Shown here one piece after another: positions 1 to 63,017 of a DNA stretch of 64,000 nt. This DNA comes from Tetracentron sinense (lineage: Eukaryota > Streptophyta > Magnoliopsida > Trochodendrales > Trochodendraceae). Position 1 is the first letter of the stretch, and every line of letters begins with the position of its first letter. The position numbers and the translations under genes are program-made. Below the pieces are notes generated by a model. The model was given only the letters and a program-made list of their open reading frames with translations. It searched no databases and was not told where the DNA came from. The stretch lies in assembly GCA_015143295.1 (NCBI GenBank), contig CM026565.1, positions 13,886,041 to 13,950,040 on the forward strand. The letters are read 5' to 3'.

Positions 1-3000
1 GGTCGCTAGCCCAATTTGGGCACTGAGAGGCCAAAATCCACACCTGGAAACTATACTTCGGCCTAAACCTAAAAAAGTGCACCACATTCAAACTGGGGGT
101 CAGGTTTCGATGTCGTTTCTTCTAAAACGTGTATTTCGACCCAACCTAAGTGTGAGAATTCGTTTAAATGGAATCCGAGATCGCTCGCCCGATATGGGCA
201 CCGAGAGGCCGAAATCCATACTTAGAAACTATACTTCGGCCTAAACCTAAAAATGTGCACCAAATGTAAACCGCGGGTTGGATTTCGATGCGGATTCTTC
301 AAACGTGGGTATTTCGACCAAACCATTGTGTGGGAAATCATTTCGATAGAACTCGATTTCTTTTGCCCGATTTGGGTACAAGAGTCCTGAAATTTATACT
401 TAGAAAGTATACTTCGGCTTAAACCTACAAATGCGCACCAAATCCAAACCTGTGATCTGATTTCTTAGTCATTTTTTCTGACGCGTATATTCCGATCTAA
501 CCTAAGTGTGGGAATTAATTTCGATAAATCCGATGTCCTTTGCCTGATTAGTGCACCGTGAGGCCGAAATCCATATTTAGAAAGTAAATTTCCTCCTAAA
601 CATAAAAATGTGCACCACATCCAAACCAAGGGTCAGATTTCGATGCCGTTTCTTATAACGCATGTTTTTCGACCCAACCTAAGTGTGGGAATTCGATTTG
701 ATGGAATCCGAGGTCGTTTGCAAAATTTGGGCACCGAGAGGCTTGAAATCTAAAATTATACTTCGGCCTAAACCTACAAATGAGAACAAAATCAAAACCG
801 GTGGTCGGATTTCGATGACCATTTTTCTAACGCTTGTATTTTGACCCAACCTAAGTGTGGGAAATCGTTTCGATTGAATCCCTGATCGTTTGCCAGATTT
901 GGGCATAGAGAGGCTCGAAATTCGTACTTAGAAAGTATACCTCGGCCTAAACCTACAAACCCGCAAAAAATCCAAACCTGTGATCGCATTTCAATTTCAT
1001 TTCTTCTAACACGTGTATTTCGATGCAACCTAAGGGTGGAATTCGTTTCGATAGAATCCGAGGAAGTTTGGTCGATATGTGCACTGAGAGGCCGAAATCC
1101 TTACTTTGAAAATATTCTTCGTCCTAAACCTAAAAAAGTGCACCACATCCAAATTGGGGGTCTGATTTCGATGTCGTTTCTTCTAATGCGTGTATTCCGA
1201 TCCAACCTAAGTGTGGGAATTCATTTCGATAGAATACGAGGTCGTTTGCCCGATTAGTGCACCGTGAGGCCGAAATCCATATTTAGAAAGTAAATTTCGT
1301 CCTAAACCTAAAAATGTGCACCACATCCAAACCAGGGTCGGATTTCGATGCCGTTTCATATAACGCATGTTTTTCGACCCAACCTAAGTGTGGGAATTCG
1401 ATTTGATGGAATCCAAGGTCGTTTGCAAAATTTAGGCACCGAGAGGCTCGAAATCTATACTTAGAAAGTACTCTTCTCCCTAAACCTACAAATGAGAACA
1501 AAATCAAACCCGGTGGTCGGATTTCGATATTCTTTTTTCTAAAGCTTGTATTTCGAGCCAACCTAAGTGTGGGAAATCGTTTCGATTAAATCCCAGATCG
1601 TTTGCCAGATTTGGGCACCGAGAAGCTCGAAATTCGTACTTAGAAAGTAAACCTCGGCCTACACCAACAAACCCGCACAAAATCAAAACCTGTGATCGCA
1701 TTTCAATTTCATTTTTTTGATGCGTATATTTCTATCCAACCTAAGGGTGGAATTTGTTTCGATAGAATCCGAGGTCGTTAGCTCGATTTGTGCACCGAGA
1801 GACCGAAATCCATACTTATAAAATATACTTCGACCTAAACCTGAAGCAGTTCACTAAATCCAAACTGGGGGTCTGATTTCGATGCTGATTCTTCTAACGC
1901 GGGTATTTCGACCCAACCTTTGTGTGGGAAATCATTTCGATGGAATTCAAGGTCGTTTGCCCGATTTGGACATTGAGAGGCCCGAAATTGATACTTAGAA
2001 AGTTGACTTCGGCCTAAACCTACAAACGCGCAACAAATCCAAACCCATGATCGGATTCCGATGTCATTTGTTCTAACGTGTGTAATACGATCCAACCTAT
2101 GTGTAGAATTCATTTCTATACAATCTGAGCTCGTTTGCCCGATTTATGCACCGAGATGCCGAAATCCATACCTAGAAAGTATACTTTGTCCTAAACCTAA
2201 AAATTTGCACCACCTCCTAACCGGGGATTGGATTTCGATGTCATTTCTTCTAATGCCTGTATATCGACCAAACCTGGGTGTTGGAATTCGTTTTGATGTA
2301 ATCCGAGGTCGTTTCCCCGATTGGGTCGCCAAGAGGCTCGAAATTGATACTTAGGAAGTATACTTCGGCCTAAACCTACAAGTGAGAACAAAATCAAAAC
2401 CGGGGGTCGGATTTCGATGGCCATTTTTCTAACGCTTGTATTTCGACCCAACCTAAGTGTGGGAAATCGTTTCGATTGAATCCCAGATCGTTTTTGCCAG
2501 ATTTGGGCACCAAGAGGCTCGAAATTCGTACTCAGAAAGTATACCTCGGCCTAAACTTACAAACCCGCACAAAATCCAAACCTGTGATCGCATTTCAATT
2601 TTATTTCTTCTAACGCGTGTATTTCGATCCAACCTAAGGGTGGAATTCGTTTCGATAGAATCCGAGGACGTTTGCTCGATATGTGCACCGAGAGGCCGAA
2701 ATCCATACTTAGAAAATATTCTTCGTCCTAAACCTAAAAAAGTGCACCACATCCAAATCGGGGGTCTGATTTCGATGTCGTTTCTTCTAAAGCGTAAATT
2801 TTGACCCAACCTAAGTGTGGAAATTCGTTTCAACAGAATCCGAGGTCGGTAGTCCGATTTGGGCACCAAGAGGTCGAAATCCACACTTAAAAACTGTACT
2901 TCGGCCTAAACCTTAAAAAGTGCACCGCATCCAAACTGGGGGTCATGTTTCGATGTCGTTTCTTCTCACGCATGTATTTCAACCCAACCTAAGTGTGGGA

Positions 3001-6000
3001 ATTCGTTTCAATGGAATCCGAGGTTGCTAGCCCGATTTTGGCACCGAGAGGCCAAAATCCATACTTAGAAACTATACTTCGGCCTAAACCTAAAAAAGTG
3101 CACCAAATGCAAACCGCTTATTGGATTTCGATGACGATTCTTCTAACGCGGGTATTTCGACCCAACCATTGTGTAGGAAATCATTTCAATGGAACCCGAG
3201 GTCTTTCGCTCGATTTGGGCACGAGAGGCCCGAAATTCATACTTAGAAAGTAAACTTCGGCCTAAACCTACAAACGCGCACCAAATCCAAACCTGCGAAC
3301 GGATTTCGAAGTCATTTGTTCTAACGCGTGTATTCCGATCCAACCTAAGTGTGGGAATTCATTTCGATAGAACCCGAGGTCGTTTGCCCGATTAGAGCAC
3401 TGTGAGGCCGAAATCCATATTTAGAAAGTACATTTCGTCCTAAACATAAAAATGTGCACAATATCCAAACCAAGGGTCGGATTTCGATGCCGTTTCTTAT
3501 AACGCATGTTTTTCGACCCAACCTAAGTGTGGAAATTCGATTTGATGGAATCCAAGGTCGTTTGCAAAATTTAGGCACCGAGAGGCTCGAAATCTATACT
3601 TAGAAAGTATACTTCGCCCTAAACCTACAATTGAGAAGAAAATCAAAACTGGTGGTCGAATTCGATGGCAATTTTTCTAACGCTAGAATTTCGACCCAAC
3701 CTAAGTGTGGGAAAATGTTTCGATTGAATCCCATATCGTTTGCCAGATTTGAGCACCGAGAGGCTCGAAATTTGTACTTAGTAAGTATACCTCGGCCTAA
3801 ACAACCAAACCCGCACAAAATCAAAACCGGTGATCGCATTTCAATTTCATTTCTTCTGATGCGTATATTTCGATCCAACCAAGGGTTGAATTCGTTTCGA
3901 TAGAATCCGAGGTCGTTAGCTCGATTTGTGCACCAAGAGGCCGAAATCCGTTCTTAGGAAATATACTTCGACCTAAACCTCAAACAGTTCACAACATCCA
4001 AACTGGGGGTCTGATTTCGATGTCGCTTCTTCCAACGCGTGTATTTTGACCCAACCTAAGTCTGGGAATTCGTTTCAACAGAATCTGAGGTCGGTAGTCC
4101 GATTTGGGCACCAAGAAGCCGAAATCCACACTTAGAAACTATACTTCGGCCTAAACCGAAAAAACTGCACCAAAGGCAAACCGCGGGTTGGATTTCGATG
4201 CCGATTCTTCTAACACGGGTATTTCGACCCAACCTTTGTGTGGGAAATCATTTCGATGGAATCCGAGGTCGTTTGCCCGATTTGGGCATCGAGAGGCCCG
4301 AAATTCATACTTAGAAAGTATACTTCGGACGAAACATACAAACGCGCACCAAATCCAAACCCATGATCGGATTCCGATGTCATTTGTTCTAACGTGACAA
4401 ATTCGATCCAACCTATGTGTAGAATTCATTTTGTTAGACTCCGAGGTCGTTTGCCAGATTTATGCACCGAGGGGCCAAAATCCATACTTAGAAAGTATAC
4501 TTTGTCCTAAACCTAAAAATGTGCACCACATCTAAACCAATGGTCAGATTTTGATGCCGTTTCTTATAACGCATGTTTTTCGACCCAACCTAAGTGTGGA
4601 AATTCGATTTGATGGTATCCAAGGTCGTTTGCAAAATTTAGGCACCAAGAGGTTCGAAATCAATACTCAGAAAGTATACTTCGGCCTAAACCTACAAATG
4701 AGAGGAAAATCAAAACCGGTGGTCGAATTTCGATGGCCATTTTTCTAACGCTTGTATTTCTACCCAACCTAAGTGTGGGAAATTGTTTCGATTGAATCCC
4801 AAATCATATTTGCCAGATTTGGGCACCGAGAGGCTAAAAATTTGTACTTAGAAAGTATACCTAGGCCTAAACCTACAAACCCGCACAAAATCGAAACCGG
4901 TGATCGCATTTCAATTTCATTTCTTCTAATGCATATATTTCGATCCAACCGAAGGGTGGAATTTCTTTCGATAGAATCCGAGGACGTTTGCTCGATATGT
5001 GCACCGAGAGGCCGAAATCCATACTTAGAAAATATTCTTCGCCCTAAACCTAAAAAAGTGCACCACATCCAAATCAGGGGTCTGATTTCGATGTCGTTTC
5101 TTCTAATGCATGTATTTTCACCCAACCTAAGTGTGGGAATTCATTTCAACAGAATCCGAGGTCGCTAGTCCGATTTGGGCACCAAGAGACCGAAATCCAC
5201 ACTTAGAAACTATACTTCGGCCTAAACCTAAAAAAGTGGACCACATCCAAACTGGGGGTCATGTTTCGATGTCGTTCCTTTTCACCCGTGTATTACGACC
5301 CAACCTAAGTGTGGGAATTCGTTTCAATGGAATCCGAGGTCACTAGCACGATTTGGGCACCGAGAGGCCGAAATCCATACTTAGAAACTATACTTTCGCC
5401 TAAACCTAAAAAAGTGCACCAAATACAAACCACTTATTGGATTTCGATGATGATTCTTCTAACGCAAGTATTTCGACCCAGCCATTGTGTAGGAAATCAT
5501 TTCAATGGAACCCGAGGGCTTTCGCTCGATTTGGGCACGAGAGGCCCGAAATTCATACTTAAAAGTATACTTTGGCCTAAACCAACAAACGCGCACCAAA
5601 TCCAAACCTGTGAACGGATTTCAAAGTCATTTGTTCTAACGCGTGTATTTCGTTCCAACCTAAGTGTGGGAATATTCATTGCCATTGAATACGGGGTCTT
5701 TTGCCCGATTAGTGCACCCTGAGGCCGAAATCCATATTTAGAAAGTATATTTCGTCCTAAACCTATATATGTGCACCACATCCAAACCAAGGGTTGAATT
5801 TCGATGCCGTTTCTTATAACGCATGTTTTTCGACCCAACCTAAGTGTGGGAATTCGATTTGATGGAATCCAAGGTCGTTTGCAAAATTTACGCACCGAGA
5901 GGCTCGAAATCTGTACTTAGAAAGTATACTTTGGCCTAATCCTACAAATGAGAAGAAATCAAAACCGGTGGTCGAATTTCGATAGCCATTTTTCTAACGC

Positions 6001-7350
6001 TTGTATTTCAACCCAACCTAAGTGTGGGAAATCGTTTAGATTGAATCCCAGATCATTTGCCAGATTTGGGCACAGAGAGGCTCGAAATTCGTAATTAGAA
6101 AGTATACCTCGGCCTAAACCTACAAACCCGAACAAAATCAAAACCGGTGATCGCATTTCAATTTCATTTCTTCTAATGCGTATATTTCGATGCAACCTAA
6201 GGGTGGAATTCGTTTCGATAGAATCCGAGGATGTTTGGTCGATATGTGCACCGAGAGGCCAAAATCCATACTTAGAAAATATTCTTCATCCTAAACCTAA
6301 AAAAGTGCACCACATCCAAATCGGGGGTCTGATTTCGATGTCGTTTCTTCTAATGCGTGTATTCCGATCCAACCTAAGTGTGGGAATTCATTTCGATAGA
6401 ATATGAGGTCGTTTGCCCGATTAGTGCACCGTGAGGCCGAAATCAATATTTAGAAAGTATATTTCGTCCTAAACCTAAATTGTGCACCACATCCAAACCA
6501 AGGGTCGGATTTAATTGCTGTTTCTTATAACGTGTGTTTTTCGACCCAACCTAAGTGTGGAAATTCGATTTGATGGAATCCAAGGTCGTTTGCAAAATTT
6601 AGGCACCGAGAGGTTCGAAATCTATACTTAGAAATTATACTTCGGCCTAAACCTACAAATGAGAAGAAAATCAATACCGATGGTCGAATTTCGATGGCCA
6701 TTTTTGTAACGCTTGTATTTCGACCCAACCTAAGTGTGGGAAATCGTTTCAATTGAATCCCAGATCGTTTGCCAAATTTGGGCACAGAGAGGCTCGAAAT
6801 TCGTAATTATAAAGTATACCTCGGCCTAAACCTACAAACCCGCACAAAATCAAAACCGGTGATCGCATTTCAATTTCATCTCTTCTAATACGTATATTTT
6901 GATCCAACCTATGGGTGGAATTCGTTTCGATAGAATCCGAGGTCGTTAGCTCGATTTGTGCACCGAGAGGCCGAAATCCATATTAGAAAATATACTTAGA
7001 CCTAAACCTCAAACAGTTCACCACATCCAAACTGGGGGTCTGATTTCGATGTCGCTTCTTCCAACGCATGTATTTTGACCCAACCTAATTGTGGGAATTT
7101 GTTTCAATGGAATCCGAGGTCGCTAGCCCAATTTGGGCATCGAGAGGCCGAAATCCATACTTAGAAACTATACTTCAGCCGAAACCTAAAAAAGTGCACC
7201 AAAGGCAAACCGCGGGTTGGATTTCGATGCCGATTCTTCTAACGCGGGTATTTCGACCCATCCTTTGTGTGGGAAATCATTTCGAGGGAATCCGAGGTCA
7301 TTTGCCTGATTTGGGCCGCGAGAAGCCCGAAATTCATACTTAGAATGTGT
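1..7350. repeat. ~178-bp satellite array with higher-order repeats
   Basis: About 41 head-to-tail monomers of roughly 178 bp fill this stretch. The anchor CCTAAGTGTGGG or a close variant recurs near 145, 323, 501, 678, 850, 1029, 1206, 1383, 1562 and 1740, and so on to the end. Neighbouring monomers differ strongly, but types recur in order. Using the variable segment around the second GATTTCGATG box, I can label types P (TTCTTATAACGCATG), Q (CCATTTTTCTAACG), R (TTTCAATTTCATTTC), S, W, T and U. The series S-W-T-U-P-Q-R-S-T-U-P-Q-R, 13 monomers or about 2.3 kb, starts near 2,640 and again near 4,955. Shorter P-Q-R-S blocks occur at about 600-1,300 and 5,760-6,470. The array continues beyond the left edge of the window. 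There is no gene here: the open frames are by-products of the repeat. Monomer size and hierarchy fit a plant centromeric, pericentromeric or subtelomeric satellite; which one cannot be told from sequence. Confidence 0.95.
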
Positions 7351-7362
7351 ACTTCTCGAAAT

Positions 7363-7489: not shown

Positions 7490-8620
7490 GCTGCACTTTT
7501 CAACCTTCCCATTTTGGTGAATAGTCTGTTTCTTGGGAAAGAAGGTCCCCCTTATCAGTTTGACTTGGGGAATACTAAAGATGGGATGGGAGTCGAGGAC
7601 AATGAGGTGTCCAAATCTCTTGACCTTGGGCCTGTCGCAAATGTCCTTGAAACGAGTGGGTTCAGGCAGATGGCTGCCTCAGAAGAATTTTTTGCAGCAG
7701 GGGTAGGTGGTGTTACACTTCCTTCTGCTGGCTCATCTGGAGCTCATGCTGAGATTGCGTGGAATGGTGGCACTTCATCCCAAAGGAGTAGATCTCCTCC
7801 TCTGGTGATTGAGGGCCCCCCTCCGGCAGCTTGGTCAAATCTGTTCCATTCGATCAAAGGTAAAAAAGCTTAGAGAGCCTTAGAGTTCATGCAACCCAAT
7901 ATTGTTGATGGAAAGCTGGTGTTTGAGAGAACTAACGAAGAACTTGATGCTAATTCCGAAGAGTGGAAGTTCTCTTTGGTGGGTTTTTTTGTTGGGCCTA
8001 AACCCCCATTTCTTACAACTAAGCGTACGCTTGAAAATCTTTGGAGAGTGCGCGGTCATATGGAGGTATTTTCACTTGATTCGGGACTTTTTGTATTCAA
8101 GCTAAATTGCAAGGAGGATAAGCACCGTATTCTAGAGGGTGGCCCATGGAGGGTCAGGAATTCCTTGCTTGTTCTTAAAGAGTGGGACAGAACTGTCAGG
8201 TTGGGGAAAGTGGAGTTCTCCTCTATGCCAATCTGGGTTAAGGTGCTAGACCCACCACTTTTCATGTGGAAGGCATCCTATCTAAGCGCCATTGGCAGTA
8301 TGATAGGGAAGCCAATCTACCTTCTGAGGTTGTTATCCAGATAATGGGCAACGGGGAATATCAGCTCCAACTTCAATATGACTGGAAACCTATGAGGTGC
8401 TCGCAGTGCATGGTATTTCACCATGGTGATAAGTCCTGTCCTAAAAACAAAGGTCAACAGCCAACCAGTGATTAGAGGCAGACGTAAAAGCAGAAGCCGA
8501 TCTAAATGGCCGTGCCAAGGCAGCAGTACCGGTCAGTGCCGCTATAAACCACTGATCCGGGGGTTCAAGAGGATAGTACTAAGACTCATGAGCAAGCTGC
8601 ACCTGATGTTAGGGAAGACC
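7490..8620 (+). pseudogene. LINE ORF1, 5' part (DUF4283 + zinc knuckle)
   Basis: In LINEs this ORF encodes the RNA-binding protein of the retrotransposition particle. One frame stays readable from about 7,490 to 8,344, broken by a TAG at 7,871-7,873. After a low-complexity, Pro/Ser-rich leader comes a DUF4283 domain at about 7,920-8,280 (key stretches WKFSLVGFFVG, LENLWRVRG and LEGGPWRV). Near 8,270-8,340 the reading shifts to the next frame, which continues to 8,475 and holds the zinc knuckle RCSQCMVFHHGDKSC, a CX2CX4HX4C motif at about 8,398-8,440. Downstream sequence is ORF1-like but closed, and is cut at 8,624 by the solo LTR. It is a decayed ORF1; the family assignment is firm. Confidence 0.85.
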
Positions 8621-9484
8621 CCATTGTAATGCCCCAAAATCCCCCTTAGGAGTTACGAGGCTTTGGCGACGTCACTTACACTTAAAATCATCTGCAAAGA
8701 GTATACAAGACATGCTAAATAGTGAACTGAAAATTTCTTTAATAACTTGACTGTATTTCATGTTTAATCATTTACAATAATTGGATATAAACTAAGACAT
8801 ATACATAAAATCCTTAACATGAGTTACCAACTCAAACTGATACAAATATCCCCATAAATAAAACCCAAAATACATGTCTCTCCCTCTACATCACTCAACC
8901 ATAAGGTCATATGTCAAGACCCCTATCATCCTCAAGAACATCCCAAGAAGGTTCCTGCCCTCCATAATCCATCTCAATCTAATGTCCTGGGATACAATGT
9001 TGAATGAACCTGCCGACATAAAATGTACGGCTGAGCATGGAATACTCAGCGTCTACAAACTACTAACTAACCATGTTATGAACTTCATTTTACATATGTA
9101 TTAAAGTAGTTCACAATCTAAATAGCATAATCAATAATAATAATCAGAGTACGGAAGCATAATACTATTTTATAAGCCTTGATTCTTGTCTTGATCTTTG
9201 ACTAGTGGAACTCATTTTGCCTTGTCTTGCCCTTGAGCGAATCATAATATTCTTGTCTTAGTTCTTGTCGTGTCAGGTTCATCATTGTTCATCTTTTCTT
9301 ATCATGTGTACATTGCGTGTCTAGTTCATGCTTGTTTTATCTCATTCTTGCGTAGATCATGCTTGTCTCCTCTTATTCTCCGTGTATCATGGTTGTCATG
9401 TCTAGTTCGTGCTTGTCTTGTTCATTTCATGTTTACCTGATATTTCTTGTATCGTTTTTCTTGTCTTGTGTTGTTCTTGCTTTG

Positions 9485-10035
9485 AGACAAATGCCAGTAC
9501 CCGTACCTGGTCATAGTATACTTGCATCATCTCTTGTATTCTCGTTAACTTGCTTGTGAGTTTCTTATGATCTTGCTTGCTTGGAAACAGATGATAGTGC
9601 CCGTACCTGGTCATAGTACATTAGCACACTTTATTTCTTGACTCAGAAACCTATACCAGTGCCCGTACTTGGTCATAGTACACTGGCATACTTTCATATT
9701 TGGAGACAGACACTAGTACCCGTACCTGGTCATTGTATACTAAGTATCCTCTCATGCTTGTCACTGATGTTAATGTCCGTACCTGGTCATAGTACATTAA
9801 CATAATTTATTTCTTGTCTTGGAAACAGATGACAGTGTCCGTACCTGGTCATAGTACACTGGCATCCTTTCATTCTTGTCTTGGAAACAGATGACAGTGC
9901 CCGTACCTGGTCATAGTACACTGACATCCTTTCATATTCTTGCTTGTGAAGTTTCTTCTCATTTCTTGTGCATTTGTCTTGTCTTGGAAACATATGTTAG
10001 TGCCCGTACCTGGTCATAGTACACTAACATACTTC
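9485..10035. repeat. Tandem hairpin array in the solo LTR (conserved loop, covarying stems)
   Basis: Eight repeats share the core CCCGTACCTGGTCATAGTA or a one-base variant, near 9,499, 9,599, 9,664, 9,719, 9,777, 9,838, 9,900 and 10,002. The flanks of each core pair with each other and change together. Stems include ATGTTAATG/CATTAACAT (about 9,767-9,804), ATGTTAGTG/CACTAACAT (about 9,992-10,029), ATACCAGTG/CACTGGCAT (about 9,653-9,690), GATGACAGTG/CACTGACATC (about 9,890-9,928) and ATGCCAGTA/TACTTGCAT (about 9,491-9,527). An inner GTAC/GTAC pair lies within the core. Spacing is uneven (50-100 bp). It is not a CRISPR: the host is a plant, spacing varies and the repeats are hairpins. Confidence 0.9.
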
Positions 10036-10904
10036 CTTATTCTTGTTTGTGAGTTATACTTGTTCTTGATCTTAGAATCATGTTTGTTCTTGGTTTATTA
10101 TACTCGTGTTGGTCATGGGAAATCATGCTTGTTCGTGTTCTTGGGAATTCATATTTATTCTTGATCTTACGAGAATCATGTTTCATTCGTGTTCTTGGGG
10201 AGTCAAGTTTGATCATGGCCTTGAAACATTGTTTTTGTCCTTTGTTCGTGGTAACTCATACTTTGTTTGATCTTGGGAAATCATGTTTGAGTGGCATCAT
10301 ACATGAGAGAATGTCAAACACATAGGAGTGGGTGTGTGCATATGCTTGGTGTACAGTTAAGGAAAACAAGGAATCATACAAGTCCTCATGCATAATGAGG
10401 GAAAACTAATAAGTCATCGAAATACATATGCAATTTAGGGAAAAAAAGGAAATCTTATCAATACACCATACATAGCATTCATTTTACAAATACAAGGCCA
10501 TATGCCATAGATCAACCAAAAACATTCATCCACCCTAGATCTAACATGATTTTATTTGTGAGCTTTGCACAAAATGGAGAGTGAGTAAAATGTTCTACTC
10601 TGTCATCATTACCCATCCATTCCTCCTTAATATCAAGAATTTCTAACTCGCCATTTAGAGAGTGCATTCACATTCTCTTTGTCTAAACCCTTTCCTTTCA
10701 TCTTATTTAAACAAAGTCATGCATCAAAACTTAATTTGCATAGAGGAATCATAACTAAGTTCTCCTTCAATCATACTAGAAATCATTGAAGAATCATCAC
10801 ATGAAATAGTAGAGTGTTATACCTTAAGGAGATCAAATCTCCACTTGAGGATGCCTTGGACCCAAGATCCAAGCTTGAATGGCATTGGAAAAACATTTCT
10901 GGGT

Positions 10905-11020
10905 GATCTCGCTCGAGTGGGCCTCCATCTCGCTCGAGCGGGTTGCTCCCGGTACTCAAAAACAGCATTTTGGTCAATCTTGCTCGAGCAGGTTTGGATC
11001 TCGCTCGAGCGAGTTTGTCT
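10905..11020. repeat. Palindrome array CGCTCGAGCG in the solo LTR
   Basis: Four palindromes centred on GCTCGAGC or a near variant stand about 25-60 bp apart: CTCGCTCGAGTGGG, CTCGCTCGAGCGGG, CTTGCTCGAGCAGG and CTCGCTCGAGCGAG. In the third copy the outer C/G pair is replaced by T/A on both arms. The array sits immediately before the conserved block TTTTGGCCATAACATTTGAC. That is the position of the unlike palindrome arrays at 19,895-20,090 and 54,750-55,200 in the two related LTRs. Confidence 0.88.
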
Positions 11021-12185
11021 GCAAAAACGTCCCTTGGCATTTTGGCCATAACATTTGACTCGGTAGTTAGATTTTGACAATTCAACTTGCGTTGGATTCG
11101 TCTTTCGAAGAGGAACAACTTTCATGTTTTATATAACTCTTAATTTTGAGTTTACTTTTCCAAAAATGGCTCTAAAGCCGACTGATCTGCAAATAGGTTT
11201 CGTCAACCCATACTGCAGTAGATCTGATTTTGGAAATCGGGAGTTTGACTTAACCCCGACTCAAAATCTGGAAAAATGGTAAACATGAACTCGAAGAGGC
11301 TTCTAATACCTTTCCAAAAATTCAATACTCACTCAATTCCGAACAACGATGACTAAACTAGAGCCCTTTAAAGTTGAGGTAAATGCCGAAACATACCTTT
11401 TCAACACCCAGAACTCTTCGAGTGTTTTCACACTCTTTTCCCTTGGGTCCAACACCATACTCACATGTCATAAATCGTTCTCCATAGGTTTTTAACCCAC
11501 CTCAATGATCAAGAAATTCACACCGAAATGCATGAGAGGTTCCGGCCTCTTTATGCCTCATGCACTAGCACTATTCACCTACAACCCATTTAAACACTTA
11601 GAGTATCTTTATATTTTCTTTTGAGATTCAAAACACACACCTACAATCCTCACTTAACTCCACACGCTAACTAGAACAAAATGGACCATCCTACCAAGAA
11701 CAAAATGTAAAGGCCTTAAGCCTTTACACACACCACACAAGGCACTATCCACACACTAGTCATGGCACTATTCTCGGCCTAGGGAACTCGGTTCCGGGTT
11801 TCTACATACATACTAAGGGTATTTTCATAACCCATCCACCTCAAATCCAACCCCTATTCCATTCTCATAACTCCTGACCCTAGGTTCTTAAAACAACTAA
11901 GGTAACCCATTGGGCACAACCCAAATGCATGGGAGGCCCCGGCCGCTACAAAATCGCTCAAATTGAAACTTAGAGTGTATAAACTCTTGCATGTATTCCC
12001 AAAACACCTTACACCTCTTGATTCATACACCGACTCCCATCACTCTCAAGCCATGAGGAAACCCTCACTCTCATTAACCAAACCCAACTTATAATAAAGG
12101 CCTTTGGCCCTTCCAATGCTAGTGCCCTCGACACTATTCACTCACATGAACAGTGCTTGTAGAAAATCCGGGGCTCTACACCCAT

Positions 12186-12580
12186 TGTCGATAAGCCCCC
12201 TGTGGAGGATGCAGTGGTAAGAGAGGATGGTATTAACACTGTGGGGATACCTAGCACAGGAGCCAGCGCTAACTAGGAGACTGTCAAAAAGCGGAGAGCT
12301 CGTCGTGCCGAGTCTTCTGTCCAAGAAGGCATTCAGAACAGCCCGAATAAGTTTGAGTTGCTGCCAACTTCGGACAATGAAGAGCTTGGCCATGACCGAA
12401 ATAGATTTACTCGCAAGCTGACTCCGTATCGAGAGAGACAAATTGCGACAAAAAATGGAGATGTTAGCCAGGGATCGGGTAGGGCTGTGAATGGTGTGAA
12501 GCATCATGTGAGCAACCCCAAAAGGTGTTTTGAGAAAAGCCCTACCCCGGTGCATATTGAACCGGGATTGGGTCCTAGGT
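12186..12580 (+). pseudogene. LINE ORF1, 3' part
   Basis: This is the continuation of ORF1 on the far side of the solo LTR. Readable peptides include the run NKFELLPTSDNEELGHDRN just before 12,420, which resembles the conserved ORF1 tail of plant L1-like elements (F-x-x-L plus acidic residues). The stretch runs to about 12,580, 40 bases before the ORF2 start. Several stops break it. The basic, low-complexity composition is usual for this part of the protein. Confidence 0.65.
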
Positions 12581-20999: not shown

Positions 21000-21330
21000 G
21001 GGAAGGGTCTCCCATCCCATCGCATTACACGCATGGCATGGCATCGCATTACACGCATGGCATGGTATCGCATGACACGCATAGCATAGCATTTCATGAC
21101 ACTCATGGCATGACATGACACGCATGGATGCTAGTTGCGACGGACTATGAAAGGCAACTAGGCATATCATTCTGCATGGATGCTAGTTGCGACGGGCTAT
21201 GAATGGCAACTAGGCACGTCATTCCGCATATAAGGTACTGGTTGCGACGGACTATGAACGGCAACTAAGCATGTCATTCCGCATATAGGGTACTAGTTGC
21301 GACGGACTATGAACGGTAACTAGGCATGTG
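21000..21330. repeat. Tandem hairpin array (about 56-bp units) in the solo LTR
   Basis: Four units carry AGTTGCGACGGACTATGAAC followed by GGCAACT, near 21,130, 21,183, 21,240 and 21,296. AGTTGC pairs with GCAACT around a constant loop; copies with GGTTGC or GTAACT keep pairing through G-T wobble. Before them (21,000-21,120) lies a run of GCATGGCATGGCAT-type short repeats. The position within the LTR corresponds to the hairpin arrays at 9,485-10,035 and 53,698-53,830. Confidence 0.85.
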
Positions 21331-22454
21331 AACATGTTTAAATTCTGAATAAGCAAGCATGATACACGCATGACATGGCATGCATGATACAAGCATGACA
21401 AGCATGACACGGTAAATAAGTTCCCAATTACGCGAAGGATATTTTAAGTCAAGTCAAGTGCATGGTGTTTTTCAAGGATTTTATCGGCTTTTCATGAACT
21501 GCAAGCATGATTATGAATTTCCTTATTTCTTTGTATGATATTAACTATTCCTGATTCATATATATCTATATTGTTTCCTGGGTATGCATTGCTATCTTTT
21601 GCTATAACTGTTGGTTAGTATTTAGTGCCCGCTGAGTATTCCATGCTCAGCCGTACTTCTTATGTCGGCAGGTTCTGAGGGAGCTACTGCTCTATTTGAT
21701 ATTTGTGCTCCTGATCCATGGGTGGAGGAGGAGTACATCGAGGAGCCTTTGGAGGAACCTCCCGTAGAGGGTTATCAGTAGGTGGTATTAGATTCTGAGT
21801 GGATTAGCTGTGGGTGAGCATGAGTGATTATATCTATGTATTTTGGCGGGCATGTCCGCACTTTCTTTGTTTTGAATTCTTTGTATTAAAACTTGGACCA
21901 TGTGTATATACTTAGAGGTTTGTTAGACTTCCGCTGTGTTTTATAGTTATGCTTCCGCTGTTATCCTCTATTGTATATGCTCTGTGGGTGTTTTGCAGGT
22001 GGTTTGTCAAGCAAGTCATGTAAGTCATGATTTAGTCGTCCACGATTCACTCTAACTCCTAGGGTGGGTTTTGGGTCGCGACAAAATGGATATCACCTAT
22101 AATATAAATTCATAAGAATTATTGTTTGACTGTAAGTAAAACAAACAATTTATAAGGATCTAACTTTATAAATGAACTTTTAACATCCAATTGGATGCTG
22201 ACTATGGAAACTTACCTAAATGAAAGGTTTTATTTCCATTTGATGAAGAACTAGTTGTGGTTACATTGTTACAAGGAATCTATCATGTGTTCTGGTGGAG
22301 GCACTATATTCCCCAGATGCCTTAGCATAGGTCCAAGGCTCTATGATGTCATTTGCTGCAAGCCTACAACATACTGTAGAGTGCCAATTTTGTGAATAAA
22401 ATGTGTTAGAAGAAAAGAATAAATTGATCCTGATTTATATTTTTTCTTTCCAGG

Positions 22455-48001: not shown

Positions 48002-49060
48002 TTAACCGTGGAGTTGAATTTTCTTTACCCTAAGGTAAATGTTTTTTTTTTTTAAATCAAGGTTAGATTTTTAAACCCTAAGGGTTAGGGAATCTTAAAC
48101 ACTGTTAATAGGGGTTAAAGAGACACATGTTGACATGTGGGTGCGATTGACATATGGATCACAGTCAATTGCGATTCACCTCAGGGAAAGTTCAATCACA
48201 GCCACAAGTCAATACGTGTCCCTATTAATTATGGTTAAGATTCCCAAACACTTCGGGTTTAACAATCTAACCTTGATTTTTAGAAAAAAAATTTAAACAT
48301 GGACCCTAAGGTTAGTTTTTTTAATATTTTTTAAGAACCAAGGTTAGATTGTTAAACCCTAAGGGTTAGGGAATCTTAAACACGGTTAATAGGGATTAAA
48401 GGGACACATGTTGACATGTGGGTGCGATTGACCTATGGATCACAACCAATTGTGATTGACCTCGGGGAAAGTTCAATCACACCCACAGGTCAACGCGTGT
48501 CGCTTTTAACCCCTATTTACTGTGGTTAAGATTCCCAAACCCATAAGGTTTAACAATCTAACCTTGATTTTTAGAAAGAAAAAAAAATTAAACATGGGGT
48601 TAAAATTTCTTAACCCTAAGGTTAAGTATTTAATATCTTTTAAAAACCAAGGTTAGATTGTTAAACCGTAAGGGTTAGGGAACCTTAAGCATGGTTAATA
48701 GGGGTTATAGGGACACATGCTGACATATGGGTACGATTGACCTATGGACCACAACCAATTGTGATTGACTTCGGGGAGAGTTCAATCACACCCACAGGTC
48801 AACACGTGTCCATTTTAACCCCTATTAACCATGGTTAACATTCTCAAACCCTTAGGGTTTAACAGTCTAACCTTGATTTTTAGAAAAACAATTAAACATG
48901 GGATTAAAATTTCTTAACCCTAAGGTTAATTTTTAAATATTTTTTTAAAACCAAGGTTAGATTGTTAAAACCTAGGGGGTTTGGTAATTTTAACCATGGT
49001 TAATAAGGATTAAAAGGGTTGTCAAGCATTTGAACTCTCCCGAGTTCAATCGCGATTGGC
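48002..49060. repeat. Tandem foldback array, units of about 300 bp
   Basis: Three full units (starting near 48,050, 48,345 and 48,650) and two partial ones follow in tandem. Each unit is itself a near palindrome. One arm has CAAGGTTAGATTGTTAAACC, AAGGGTTAGGGAATCTTAA and ACACATGTTGACATGTGGGT. The other has ACCCACAGGTCAACACGTGT, TTAAGATTCCCAAACCCTTA and ACAATCTAACCTTGATTTTT. The centre is CAACCAATTGTGATTGACC. There is no coding sequence. Units differ by scattered substitutions, so it is old. It could be a MITE family multiplied in tandem. Confidence 0.85.
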
Positions 49061-52892: not shown

Positions 52893-53697
52893 TGTCGCGA
52901 CCCAAAACCCACCCTAGGAGTTAGAGTGAACTTTGGACGACTAATCATGGCTTACATGACTTGCTTGACAAACCAACCTGCAAAAACCCACAGAGCATAT
53001 ATACAATAGAGGATATAAACAGCGGAAACATACTCTAACATAGCACAGCGGAAGTCTAAACAAACCTCTATGTATACACGAATCCAAGTTTTCACAAAAG
53101 GAATCCAAAAGAAAGTGCGGACAGACCCGCCAAAATACATGGATATAATCACTCTTGCTCACCCACAGCTAATCCACTCAGAACCTAACACCACCTACTG
53201 ATAACCCTCTATGGGAGGTTCCTCAAAAGGCTCCTCGACGTACTCCTCTTCCACCCATGGACCAGGAGCACAAACATCAAATGGAGCAGCAACTCCCTCA
53301 GAACCTACCGACATAAGAAGTACGGCTGAGCATGGAATACTCAGCGGGTACCAAATACTAACCAATAGTCATAGCATAAAAATGGCAATACATAAATCAG
53401 GAGCAATTCATATATGTTAGACAGAAACAATTCATATCATACAAGGAAGTAAAGCAATTTATAATCATGCTTGTATTTCGTAGAAAGCCGATAAAACCTC
53501 TTGAAAACATCGTGCACTTGACTTGGCTTGAAATATTTTTCGTACTTGAAAGCTTGTCGTGTTTGTCTTACTTGATCTTGTCGAGCGTGTCGTACGTGTC
53601 ATGTCATGCATGTCATGCGTGCTTGCTTGTGATCATGTAACTTGTGAGATACACTTGTGAGATATCCTTGTGAGATGCGCTTGAGAGATGCCTTGAG

Positions 53698-53832
53698 AGG
53701 GAAGGGAGACCCTTCTTTATGCAATGCACTTGCGAGGGAAGGGAGACCCTTCTTCATGATATGTATGTACTTGCGAGGGAAGGGAGGCCCTTCTTCATGA
53801 TATGCACTTGTGAGTGAGGGGAGACCCCTCGT
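53698..53832. repeat. Hairpin array GAAGGG-AGA-CCCTTC in the left LTR
   Basis: GAAGGGAGACCCTTC stands at 53,701-53,715 and 53,738-53,752, GAAGGGAGGCCCTTC at 53,779-53,793 and GAGGGGAGACCCCTC at 53,816-53,830. In the last copy an A/T pair has become G/C on both arms. Just before it (53,641-53,690) are repeats of CTTGTGAGAT. The right LTR carries the same set at 61,441-61,570. Confidence 0.88.
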
Positions 53833-54749: not shown

Positions 54750-55200
54750 GTACTGAACACGTTGAGCTGTGAATAGTGCCAAACACGTTGTGCTGTGAAC
54801 AACGCTGAACACGTTGTGCTGTGAACAGTGCCGAACACGTTGTGCTGTGAATAGTGCCAAACACGTTGTGCTGTGAATAGTGCCAAACACGTTGTCCTGT
54901 GAATAGTGCCAAACACGTTGTGCTATGAATAGTGCTGAGCTCGTTGTCCGTTGTCTTATGTACAACGTACCCATTGTGAGCTGTACAACGTACTCGTTGT
55001 TTGATGTACAACGTACACGTTGTCTGCTGCATGACGTACCCGTTGTCTGTTGCACAACGGATGCACAACGTACACGTTGTGAGCTATACAACGTACTCGT
55101 TGTTTGCTGTACAATGTACACGTTGTCTGCTGCACGACGTACCCGTTGTCTGTTGCACAATGGATGCACAACGTACACGTTATCAGAGTACGTTGTCTAT
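54750..55200. repeat. Palindrome array ACAACGTACACGTTGT in the left LTR
   Basis: The left part (about 54,752-54,945) is a 26-bp tandem repeat built on CACGTTGTGCTGTGAA and TAGTGCC. The right part (about 54,946-55,200) alternates ACAACGTAC with CGTTGT to give palindromes such as ACAACGTACACGTTGT and ACAACGTACTCGTTGT, separated by TCTGCTGCACGACGTACC-type spacers. It is bounded by GCAAAAACGCGAGTACTG on the left and, after a spacer, TTTTGGCCATATCTTTTGAC on the right. Confidence 0.9.
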
Positions 55201-60633: not shown

Positions 60634-63017
60634 TGTCGCGACCCAAAACCCACCCTAGGAGTTAGAGTGAACTTTGGACGACTAATCATGGCTTACATGA
60701 CTTGCTTGACAAACCAACCTGCAAAAACCCACAGAGCATATACAATAGAGGATATAAACAGCGAAAACATACTCTAACATAGCACAGCGGAAGTCTAAAC
60801 AAACCTCTATGTATATACGACTCCAAGTTTTCACAAAAGGAATCCAAAAGAAAGTGCGGACAGACCCGCCAAAATACATGGATATAATCACTCTTGCTCA
60901 CCCATAGCTAATCCACTCAGAACCTAACACCACCTACTGATAACCCTCTACAGGAGGTTCCTCAAAAGGCTCCTCGACGTACTCCTCTTCCACCCATGGA
61001 CCAGGAGCACAAACATCAAATGGAGCAGCAGCTCCCTCAGAACCTGCCGACATAAGAAGTACGGCTGAGCATGGAATACTCAACGGGTACCAAATACTAA
61101 CCAATAGTCATAGCATAAAAATGGCAATACATAAATCAGGAGCAATTCATATATGTTAGACAGAAACAATTCATATCATACAAGGAAGTAAAGCAATTTA
61201 TAATCATGCTTGTATTTCGTAGAAAGCCGATAAAACCTCTTGAAAACATCGTGCACTTGACTTGGCTTGAAATATCTTTTCGTACTTGAAAGCTTGTAGT
61301 GTTTGTCTTACTTGATCTTGTCGAGCGTGTCGTACGTGTCATGTCATGCATGTCATGCGTGCTTGCTTGTGATCATGTAACTTGTGAGATACACTTGTGA
61401 GATATCCTTGTGAGATGCGCTTGAGAGATGCCTTGATAGGGAAGGGAGACCCTTCTTTATGCAATGCACTTGCGAGGGAAGGGAGACCCTTCTTCATGAT
61501 ATGTATGTACTTGGAGGGAAGGGAGGCCCTTCTTCATGATATGCACTTGTGAGTGAGGGGAGACCCCTCGTGGAATGTTGGTTCTTGTTTTCTTGTGAAA
61601 AGCGAGGTAAAACATATCGTAGGATATGTCCCACCTCTAACCATGTTCTTGAAAACCTCGATAAATCATGTCATGCATGCCGTGCTCGTGGGAACCGTGT
61701 ACATACTTGCATTTAAATTTAAATATGACATTTGGGTAATTTCACAACACATATAACATCAATGATTGAGCAATGTAATATTCATATCATTTAGGGAAAG
61801 CAAGAAAACACACTATCATAGGCCCTAGCAATATTCATATTTTATTAGGCATGCATTTCCTAATTTACAACTCATTTTATTCACCTTGGCATTTCATCAA
61901 ACATGGTGAGTTCATTATTCATTATTCATTTAAACCTAAATCATGCTTTTCTAGGTGAGTTTACTCACATCATAACTTGTATGTTCATTATTAGTACAAT
62001 GCCCTTTCCCATTCGTTCATCACATCATCCACACGGCATCCATTCGCCAACATCCATCTCCATTCACCATTCACAACCATCCATCTCATAGCACATGTGT
62101 AAATGAAAGGAAATCAAAAGAAATAAAGGGAAAAGAGGAACTATAACTAGGAGGGTAGTAAGAAGTACCGACCTTGATCAAGTGAGGAAGAAATCCCCCT
62201 TCCAAAAACAACTGTGAGTTGCTGCCCTAGGTTGAGGAGATGCTCCTCACGAGTTTGTGCCTTGATCTTGAAGAAAAATGGGCTTGAGTGGAGTGTGGGT
62301 TCACAAACCCCTTGATTTCTCTCCAAAATGGAAACCCTAGGTTGGAATCGCCTTCTCCCCTTTCTCCTATTCTCTCAAACTCTCTAAGTGTTGAATGATG
62401 CCCTAAAGGCTCGGGTTAAACTCTCAAGGTAAGAGTAAACCGACCAAAAGACCATAATACCCTTACTGAAATTTCTGCAAAAACGTGAGTACTAAACACG
62501 TTGAGCTATGAATAGTGCCAAACACGTTGTGCTGTGAACAGCGCTGAACACGTTGTGCTGTGAACAGTGCCAAACACGTTGTGCTGTGAATAGTGCCAAA
62601 CACGTTGTGCTGTGAATAGTGCCAAACACGTTGTGCTGTGAATAGTGCTGAGCTCGTTGTCTGTTGTGTTATGTACAACGTACCCGTTGTGAGCTGTACA
62701 ACGTACTCGTTGTTTGCTGTACAATGTACACGTTGTCTGCTGCACGACGTACCCGTTGTCTGTTGTACAACGGATGCACAACGTACACGTTGTGAGCTGT
62801 ACAACGTACACGTTGTCTGCTGCACGACGTACCCGTTGTCTGTTGCACAACGGATGCACAACGTACACGTTATCAGAGTACGTTGTCTATGCGTTGTCTG
62901 TGCCTTATCAGAGCACGTTGTCAGAGCTACGTCCTTAGTGCCTTCCGAGCTACGATTGCCTGTAGGTCCAGACTGTTTTGGCCATATCTTTTGACTCGTT
63001 CGTCCGATTTTGACGAT
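60634..63017 (-). repeat. 5' LTR of the Ty3/gypsy element (right copy)
   Basis: It matches the left LTR from TGTCGCGACCCAAAACCC onward, at about 98% by eye over the stretches compared. The hairpin array is at 61,441-61,570 and the palindrome array at about 62,492-62,885. The palindrome array is shorter than in the partner. Similarity ends at 63,017. Confidence 0.93.

Follow-up and report, generated by a model that had tools for sequence, protein, structure and literature searches.

The window, a stretch of 64,000 nucleotides of the Tetracentron sinense genome, contains at 8625-12180 on the minus strand a solo long terminal repeat (LTR) of 3,556 bp. Its ends and flanks were read directly: the termini are TGTAGAG...TTACA, running from 12180 down to 8625, and the target-site duplication ATGGG is present on the left (8620-8624) and on the right (12181-12185). 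An earlier note on this DNA had called a solo LTR, which is borne out by the TG...CA ends, the 5-bp ATGGG duplication and the sequence directly past the window LTR end, where no primer-binding site was found. The LTR has piecewise homology to the 3.17-kb LTRs of a full-length relative, L043, which are 96.7% identical to each other. L043 has a 5-bp target-site duplication (CATCC), a primer-binding site after its 5′ LTR (TGGTATCAGAGC, which we take to match the initiator tRNA, tRNA-iMet) and, in this one full-length copy, a gag frame (4014-4535) that matches PF03732 (4.6e-19) and the Ty3 capsid PF19259 (2.2e-7). Because this gag frame runs opposite to the core quoted in the earlier note, as does the primer-binding site, the sense strand of the element is the minus strand, the loop in sense is TACTATGACCAGGTACGGG, and the letters quoted earlier are those of the antisense strand. 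With a TG...CA LTR, a 5-bp duplication, a gypsy-type gag and a primer-binding site, the carrier is, as far as sequence features classify it, a Ty3/gypsy-type LTR retrotransposon. The interiors of L043 and of another relative, L045, are short, the longest frame being at most 333 aa. L045, presumed to be a non-autonomous element of the same LTR group as the array carrier, has at 3655-4653 a frame that matches PF20167 (Transposase_32, putative plant transposon protein; E 3.8e-28).

A TATA-like stretch (TTATATAAAACATG) at 11123-11136 on the minus strand lies just before a shared box, at LTR position about 1046 in the window copy and 478 in L043; no TATA-like stretch was found at the corresponding place in the second and third LTR families of the window. 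Because this stretch is a possible promoter, the hairpin array described below probably lies inside transcribed sequence. The upstream part of the solo LTR also contains a repeated palindrome, CTCGCTCGAGCGAG, at 10880-11020 (fold z -4.9 on the plus strand and -3.1 on the minus strand).

The eight tandem repeats reported by the earlier note are present, with 19-nt cores that start on the plus strand at 9500, 9600, 9662, 9719, 9776, 9838, 9900 and 10003, at a core-to-core spacing of 57-103 nt, in an array that spans 9482-10038. Numbered in the sense direction, all on the minus strand and with their covariance model scores, the hairpin units are unit 1 at 9985-10038 (81.5 bits), unit 2 at 9882-9935 (82.3 bits), unit 3 at 9820-9873 (77.6 bits), unit 4 at 9758-9811 (64.3 bits; three of its four outer pairs are broken), unit 5 at 9701-9755 (63.9 bits), unit 6 at 9644-9697 (70.3 bits), unit 7 at 9582-9635 (69.2 bits; four inner pairs and one outer pair are not Watson-Crick) and unit 8 at 9482-9535 (76.1 bits). 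A unit in sense consists of an outer stem strand GAAA(G), a 10-bp inner stem, a 19-nt loop region and the two partner strands. The four outer pairs, which the earlier note had not seen, extend the stem, with GAAA/TTTC and GAGA/TCTC switching jointly and GGAA/TTCC being rarer. Among the arm pairs quoted earlier, ATGTTAATG/CATTAACAT and ATGTTAGTG/CACTAACAT are perfectly complementary, and ATACCAGTG/CACTGGCAT, GATGACAGTG/CACTGACATC and ATGCCAGTA/TACTTGCAT have one non-complementary position each; the list is slightly kinder than the actual DNA. Even so few units are informative about pairing: 69 of the 80 inner-stem cells of the window are Watson-Crick, a number reached by only 2 of the 40,320 ways to re-pair the 5′ arms with the 3′ arms, the true pairing counted among them.

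The 19-nt loop region probably folds into a 3-bp UAC/GUA inner helix, a CGGG bulge and a 9-nt apical loop. Across 136 units, pairing amounts to 95.8% in the UAC/GUA helix, in which two-sided variation never occurs, and to 84.0% over the 14 pairs of the outer and inner stems, 11 of which have changes in both arms. Loop columns are less variable than most arm columns, a conservation that is partly built in because units were gathered by their core (at most four mismatches), although few units are near this cut-off. The stretch 8600-12200 of the window matches no family of Rfam 15 at E up to 1. Stems of 10-15 bp seem too short for dicing, and with stems of that length a reading of the units as small-RNA precursors was set aside.

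The 19-nt core has 873 exact copies in the 1.16-Gb genome (426 forward and 447 reverse), as against none for the reversed control, and a 13-nt part of the core has 1,756 exact genome copies as against nine for its control. The units analysed here number 837 in 101 loci (812 of them distinct, all with at most four core mismatches), with a median of eight and at most 16 units found per locus. Forty loci came from exact core hits, 20 from LTR hits and 40 via three other arrays, in addition to the window itself; the sample is non-random, since its loci are exact-core hits from the first three contigs plus best BLAST hits. Units with more than four core mismatches, units cut by the end of a locus and identical rows were left out before counting, and the branch tests described below drop 49 and 81 units that belong to second LTRs or to the near-copy L048.

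The two arms of the hairpin were said in the earlier note to vary together, and they do so more than in shuffles, with slid partners or under a phylogeny-aware null. A separate tool counted, in 136 units, 214 cells changed on both sides, compared with 87 in shuffles, and gave a covariation score of 0.291, compared with 0.184 when shuffled (equalled in 0 of 500) and at most 0.128 with slid partners. Covariation score, paired cells and two-sided cells each exceed all 500 shuffles, while two of the five shuffle measures are not exceeded in this set: pairs changed on both sides (11 vs 11.0) and further pair types (36 vs 33.5, 78 of 500). The inner stems of all 812 distinct units contain 7,109 Watson-Crick, 415 G-U, 202 A-C, 334 other and 60 gapped cells.

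As related units can seem to covary through descent, the paired columns were also simulated independently of each other on unit trees, each column keeping its own number and kind of changes, with 200 simulations on a tree built without the stem columns and 200 on a tree built from all columns. The 14-bp stem is Watson-Crick in 9,913 of 11,368 cells (812 distinct units, 101 loci), which no simulation reached on either tree (0/200 on each), the maxima being 7,926 without the stem columns and 9,101 with all columns. Compensated cells number 1,156, as against simulated maxima of 1,055 and 699, respectively. Counted from the core, pairs -1/19, -6/24, -7/25 and -13/32 are individually significant on both trees (at most 2/200) and the other 10 of the 14 pairs are not so on both; -13/32 is the only such pair among the four outer ones, and the outermost pair, -15/34, has fewer compensated cells than the simulated mean. 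The tandem hairpin covaries beyond what phylogeny explains.

The units fall into 21 classes, each found in at least four loci; recurrent types are common to many loci. These 21 classes have 16 distinct inner stems, in which 200 of the 210 inner cells are Watson-Crick, six are sense G-U, none is A-C and four are other. In four of the 21 classes one inner pair is fixed as a mismatch (TT or CT), and many units of these four have an insertion in one arm; the outer stem is broken in some fixed classes. The earlier note had proposed that recombination between a few fixed units would refute it; the units are indeed recurrent types across many loci, but the types differ by paired changes that block shuffling does not explain. 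It is therefore very unlikely that the array has no function and that a few unit types matched by chance have been propagated as whole blocks through duplication, unequal exchange and retrotransposition. The recurrence of types, the number of units per locus (varying up to 16), the unpaired drift after insertion and the hybrid units visible, for example, in L022, which join arms from two types, would all be accommodated by such spreading. The paired differences between 16 inner stems, the four individually significant pairs and the failure of independently evolving sites to reach the observed pairing on unit trees would not be, and exchange within the identical core should presumably often yield mismatched hybrids.

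Pairing has not been kept equally at all times. Between LTRs of one element, 720 pair positions contain 66 one-sided changes and five two-sided changes, where about two of the latter would arise by chance; not one of the five leads from one pair to another. An earlier run with 39 unit pairs from seven presumed LTR pairs gave 56 one-sided changes and a single two-sided change (AT vs GC in L045); in the later run three presumed pairs were added, L045 and L051/L052 were dropped, another locus being closer, and 52 unit pairs remained. The LTRs of L045 align with each other at 93.8%, although they were dropped. The LTR pairs of L042, L043 and L045 were recognised by self-alignment and the rest by distance and spacing only, with L049/L050 barely passing as a pair (0.045 vs 0.045). 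Between units of different loci, the two-sided share of changed inner pairs climbs with divergence from 0.32 to 0.57 and is 0.50 in the smallest, most diverged bin. In the inner stem, compensated changes and one-sided losses stand at 43:78 on branches shared between loci and at 44:485 on single-locus branches when the tree is built without stem columns (p 9e-13). The all-column tree, which itself uses the stem letters, gives no significant enrichment on shared branches (5:112 vs 7:393, p 0.15). Compensated differences separate old unit types. By the contrasts between shared and single-locus branches and within LTR pairs, pairing is maintained as long as the element replicates and decays in dead copies.

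The same data bear on the copying of one arm from the other, which the earlier note had offered as an alternative to selection. Such copying after insertion is unsupported, given the 66 one-sided and five two-sided changes with none from pair to pair. Hairpin-templated copying during reverse transcription or replication, by template switching or quasi-palindrome correction, could match the arms without selection and, acting in the life cycle, could spare the changes that follow insertion. Two details of the alignment would suit it: a transversion from G-C to T-A at pair -10/28 without a wobble intermediate, and two pairs changed at once on seven of the 20 deep branches with a compensated change on the tree without stem columns (the other 13 being single-pair and uninformative here, with all five on the all-column tree single-pair too). 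The mechanism has been described for RNA genes in sections of PMC8794818, and the hairpins resemble the template-switch hairpins described there in their compensatory stem changes and stable loop. Unlike those, they show no loop inversion: copying that runs through the loop would be expected to invert it now and then, and units in both orientations are found in 0 of 101 loci, although loop inversions are rare in those sections also. One-sided wobble states moreover persist as unit classes, and the five two-sided changes after insertion, where about two are expected, include none from pair to pair. Templated copying is accordingly quite unlikely to account for the array.

Selection on a folded RNA or DNA, the other possibility raised by the earlier note, is favoured, and the fold is more likely to be that of the sense RNA than that of DNA. 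The whole array has a fold z of -2.16 in sense and +0.19 in antisense (-1.82 and +0.28 in a repeat run), and of 200 single units 179 have the better fold in sense, with means of -15.1 vs -11.4 kcal/mol. The antisense hairpin, which is on the strand quoted in the earlier note, was rejected: it folds worse, and RNAalifold found no structure on the antisense strand. The RNAalifold consensus in sense amounts to only -1.65 kcal/mol for 136 units and -3.75 kcal/mol for 450 units. At the level of classes, sense G-U and A-C inner cells number 6:0 of 210 at a cut of 0.16, 7:0 of 320 at 0.13 and 1:1 of 120 at 0.19, the coarsest; three of the six G-U cells at cut 0.16 reach 60% of their class, which leaves three as against no A-C.

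Branch by branch, the G-U:A-C ratio in 388 rows is 35:15 on shared branches and 60:67 on private branches (p 0.007), where a private branch is a single tip, and in 739 rows it is 58:29 and 145:118 (p 0.06), where a private branch is a single locus. On trees without stem columns, this test is not significant (p 0.35 and 0.33). The shared 58:29 departs by itself from an even ratio (p 0.002), a bias that unpaired columns lack (220:249 on shared branches of the all-column tree). The evidence on the strand leans to sense RNA and is not proof.

It is unlikely that the fold acts instead as DNA, in the form of cruciforms, of hairpins in single-stranded cDNA or of a dyad read by a dimeric factor, with the array serving as an enhancer or silencer of the LTR. 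In the outer stem, one-sided changes on shared branches favour neither strand, having no G-U preference (G-U:A-C 13:12), and the same solo LTR contains strict DNA palindromes near 10880-11020, both of which would agree with a function in DNA. A factor that reads a dyad, however, would be expected to fix the arms and free the spacer, whereas the arms vary more than the 19-nt spacer, the conservation of which is partly built in; a loop steadier than its arms, in units collected by core, fits the recognition of an RNA loop better than that of a DNA dyad. The better fold of the sense strand and the class-level wobbles, which are sense G-U by six to none at the middle cut, also argue against DNA.

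With slightly more confidence than doubt, the array may be annotated as a multi-copy cis-acting stem-loop signal in the element's own sense RNA. Each unit would present a 10-bp stem with about four outer pairs, closed by the conserved 19-nt loop region. If the stem need only pair, its letters would be free to drift as compensated pairs, and the loop, as the recognised part, would stay fixed. Tandem repetition would supply many binding sites for one trans factor, so that binding could be cooperative and the loss of a single unit tolerated. We infer selection on the RNA, transcription of the array and binding of the loop by a protein; its likeliest role would be as a signal for the packaging, dimerisation or nuclear export of the genomic RNA.

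LTR retrotransposons make up much of plant DNA, and to our knowledge little is known of the cis-acting RNA signals of those in plants. In retroviruses, the packaging and dimerisation hairpins are structured cis-acting elements of the genomic RNA, and the constitutive transport elements of simple retroviruses have repeated like loops on stems that are read by a host protein. The array differs from a constitutive transport element in sequence and layout, and its own role in export and a host reader would be putative; the Rfam search of the LTR gave no match to any family. The 5′ domain of Ty1 has kissing hairpins in which compensatory mutations rescue retrotransposition, as a part of PMC5454406 describes. 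By analogy with Ty1 and retroviral genomic RNA, the units may be stem-loops of the element RNA with loops that matter; in contrast to those systems, which have a few different hairpins near the RNA start, one hairpin, of putative function, is repeated here in tandem inside a long LTR. The tandem repeats in U3 of tobacco Tnt1 are described as transcription-control repeats in a portion of PMC3601003; they too are short tandem repeats in an LTR, but the units of the array are inverted repeats with covarying arms. The same paper also considers the LTRs of plant Metaviridae too variable in length for its profile models.

LTRs of the Del/Tekay lineage measure 1.1-4.4 kb according to the main text of PMC4029996, in which the words 'tandem', 'hairpin', 'palindrom' and 'inverted repeat' have no occurrences. 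The carrier resembles this lineage in its very long LTRs (3.17 and 3.56 kb) and gypsy-type gag, the likeness to the lineage as such being one of LTR length. No description of such arrays is among the literature matches listed, which cover titles and the beginnings of abstracts and leave most subscription journals outside. A covarying hairpin with a conserved loop would be a concrete bait with which to find the factor responsible for packaging, exporting or translating such RNA. Hundreds of replicate stems, linked by common descent, also make the array a natural compensatory-mutation experiment: every insertion frees its stems from selection, at a time that can be dated if both LTRs are still there, and the stepwise evolution of stems through wobbles can be compared with template copying.

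The three LTR families of the window have in common an LTR box, located in the solo LTR at 9007-9079 on the minus strand, that contains a hairpin of its own, GCTGAG-TATTCCATG-CTCAGC (9030-9050). The box is also found at 21603-21674 (plus strand) and 53302-53362 (minus strand), with the hairpin followed by CGTACNNNTTATGTCGG[CT]AGGTTC; the end of the box resembles a 3′ splice site. Of 41 long loci, 15 have a strict pattern of the box at most 1.5 kb downstream of their array, and the other LTR families of the window likewise have tandem inverted-repeat units upstream of the shared GCTGAG...CTCAGC box. It may be proposed, tentatively and with more doubt than confidence, that long-LTR plant gypsy elements carry an undescribed class of cis-acting RNA consisting of tandem stem-loops with like loops and freely turning-over stems, and that different LTR families keep this platform in the same position, upstream of the hairpin box that they share, on stems that differ but with one loop word in common (ACUAUGA in two families), as if one element or host protein reads the loop.

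The second LTR family has at 21131-21329 (plus strand) tandem 55-bp units with the hairpin CTAGTTGC-GACGGACTATGAACG-GCAACTAG, and the word ACTATGA is common to its sense loop GACGGACTATGAACG and to the sense loop of the array. These hairpins were rejected as homologues of the array, for at E up to 10 the covariance model matches nothing in the window but the eight units; because it detects no homology, the shared ACTATGA is only a word match, and the permuted-word control for it tallies copies of whole families and hence gives no probability. In 20 further loci the arms of the second family are nearly invariant. Some of its recurrent one-sided arm changes are of the sense G-U kind (CTGGTTGC and GCAGCTAG), with A-C changes (CTAGTTAC) also present, and its fold z is weak for the whole array (-0.98 in sense) and good on either strand for single units (-2.30 in sense and -2.47 in antisense).

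The third LTR family has tandem 37-bp units with the hairpin GAAGGGTCTCCCTTC at 53688-53827 and 61438-61566 (minus strand), presumably in the two LTRs of one element, about 7.7 kb apart. The 37-bp units fold well on both strands. Tandem 23-bp near-palindromes, ACAACGTACACGTTGT, are found near the LTR start at 54948-55181 and 62672-62871, with fold z of -2.3 to -3.0 on both strands. Elsewhere in the window, a satellite-like tandem array of a 178-bp unit occupies 1-7355 (41 copies, 75% matches), and a 309-bp tandem repeat of 2.3 copies at 48303-49014 is strongly self-complementary, with fold z of about -21 to -23.
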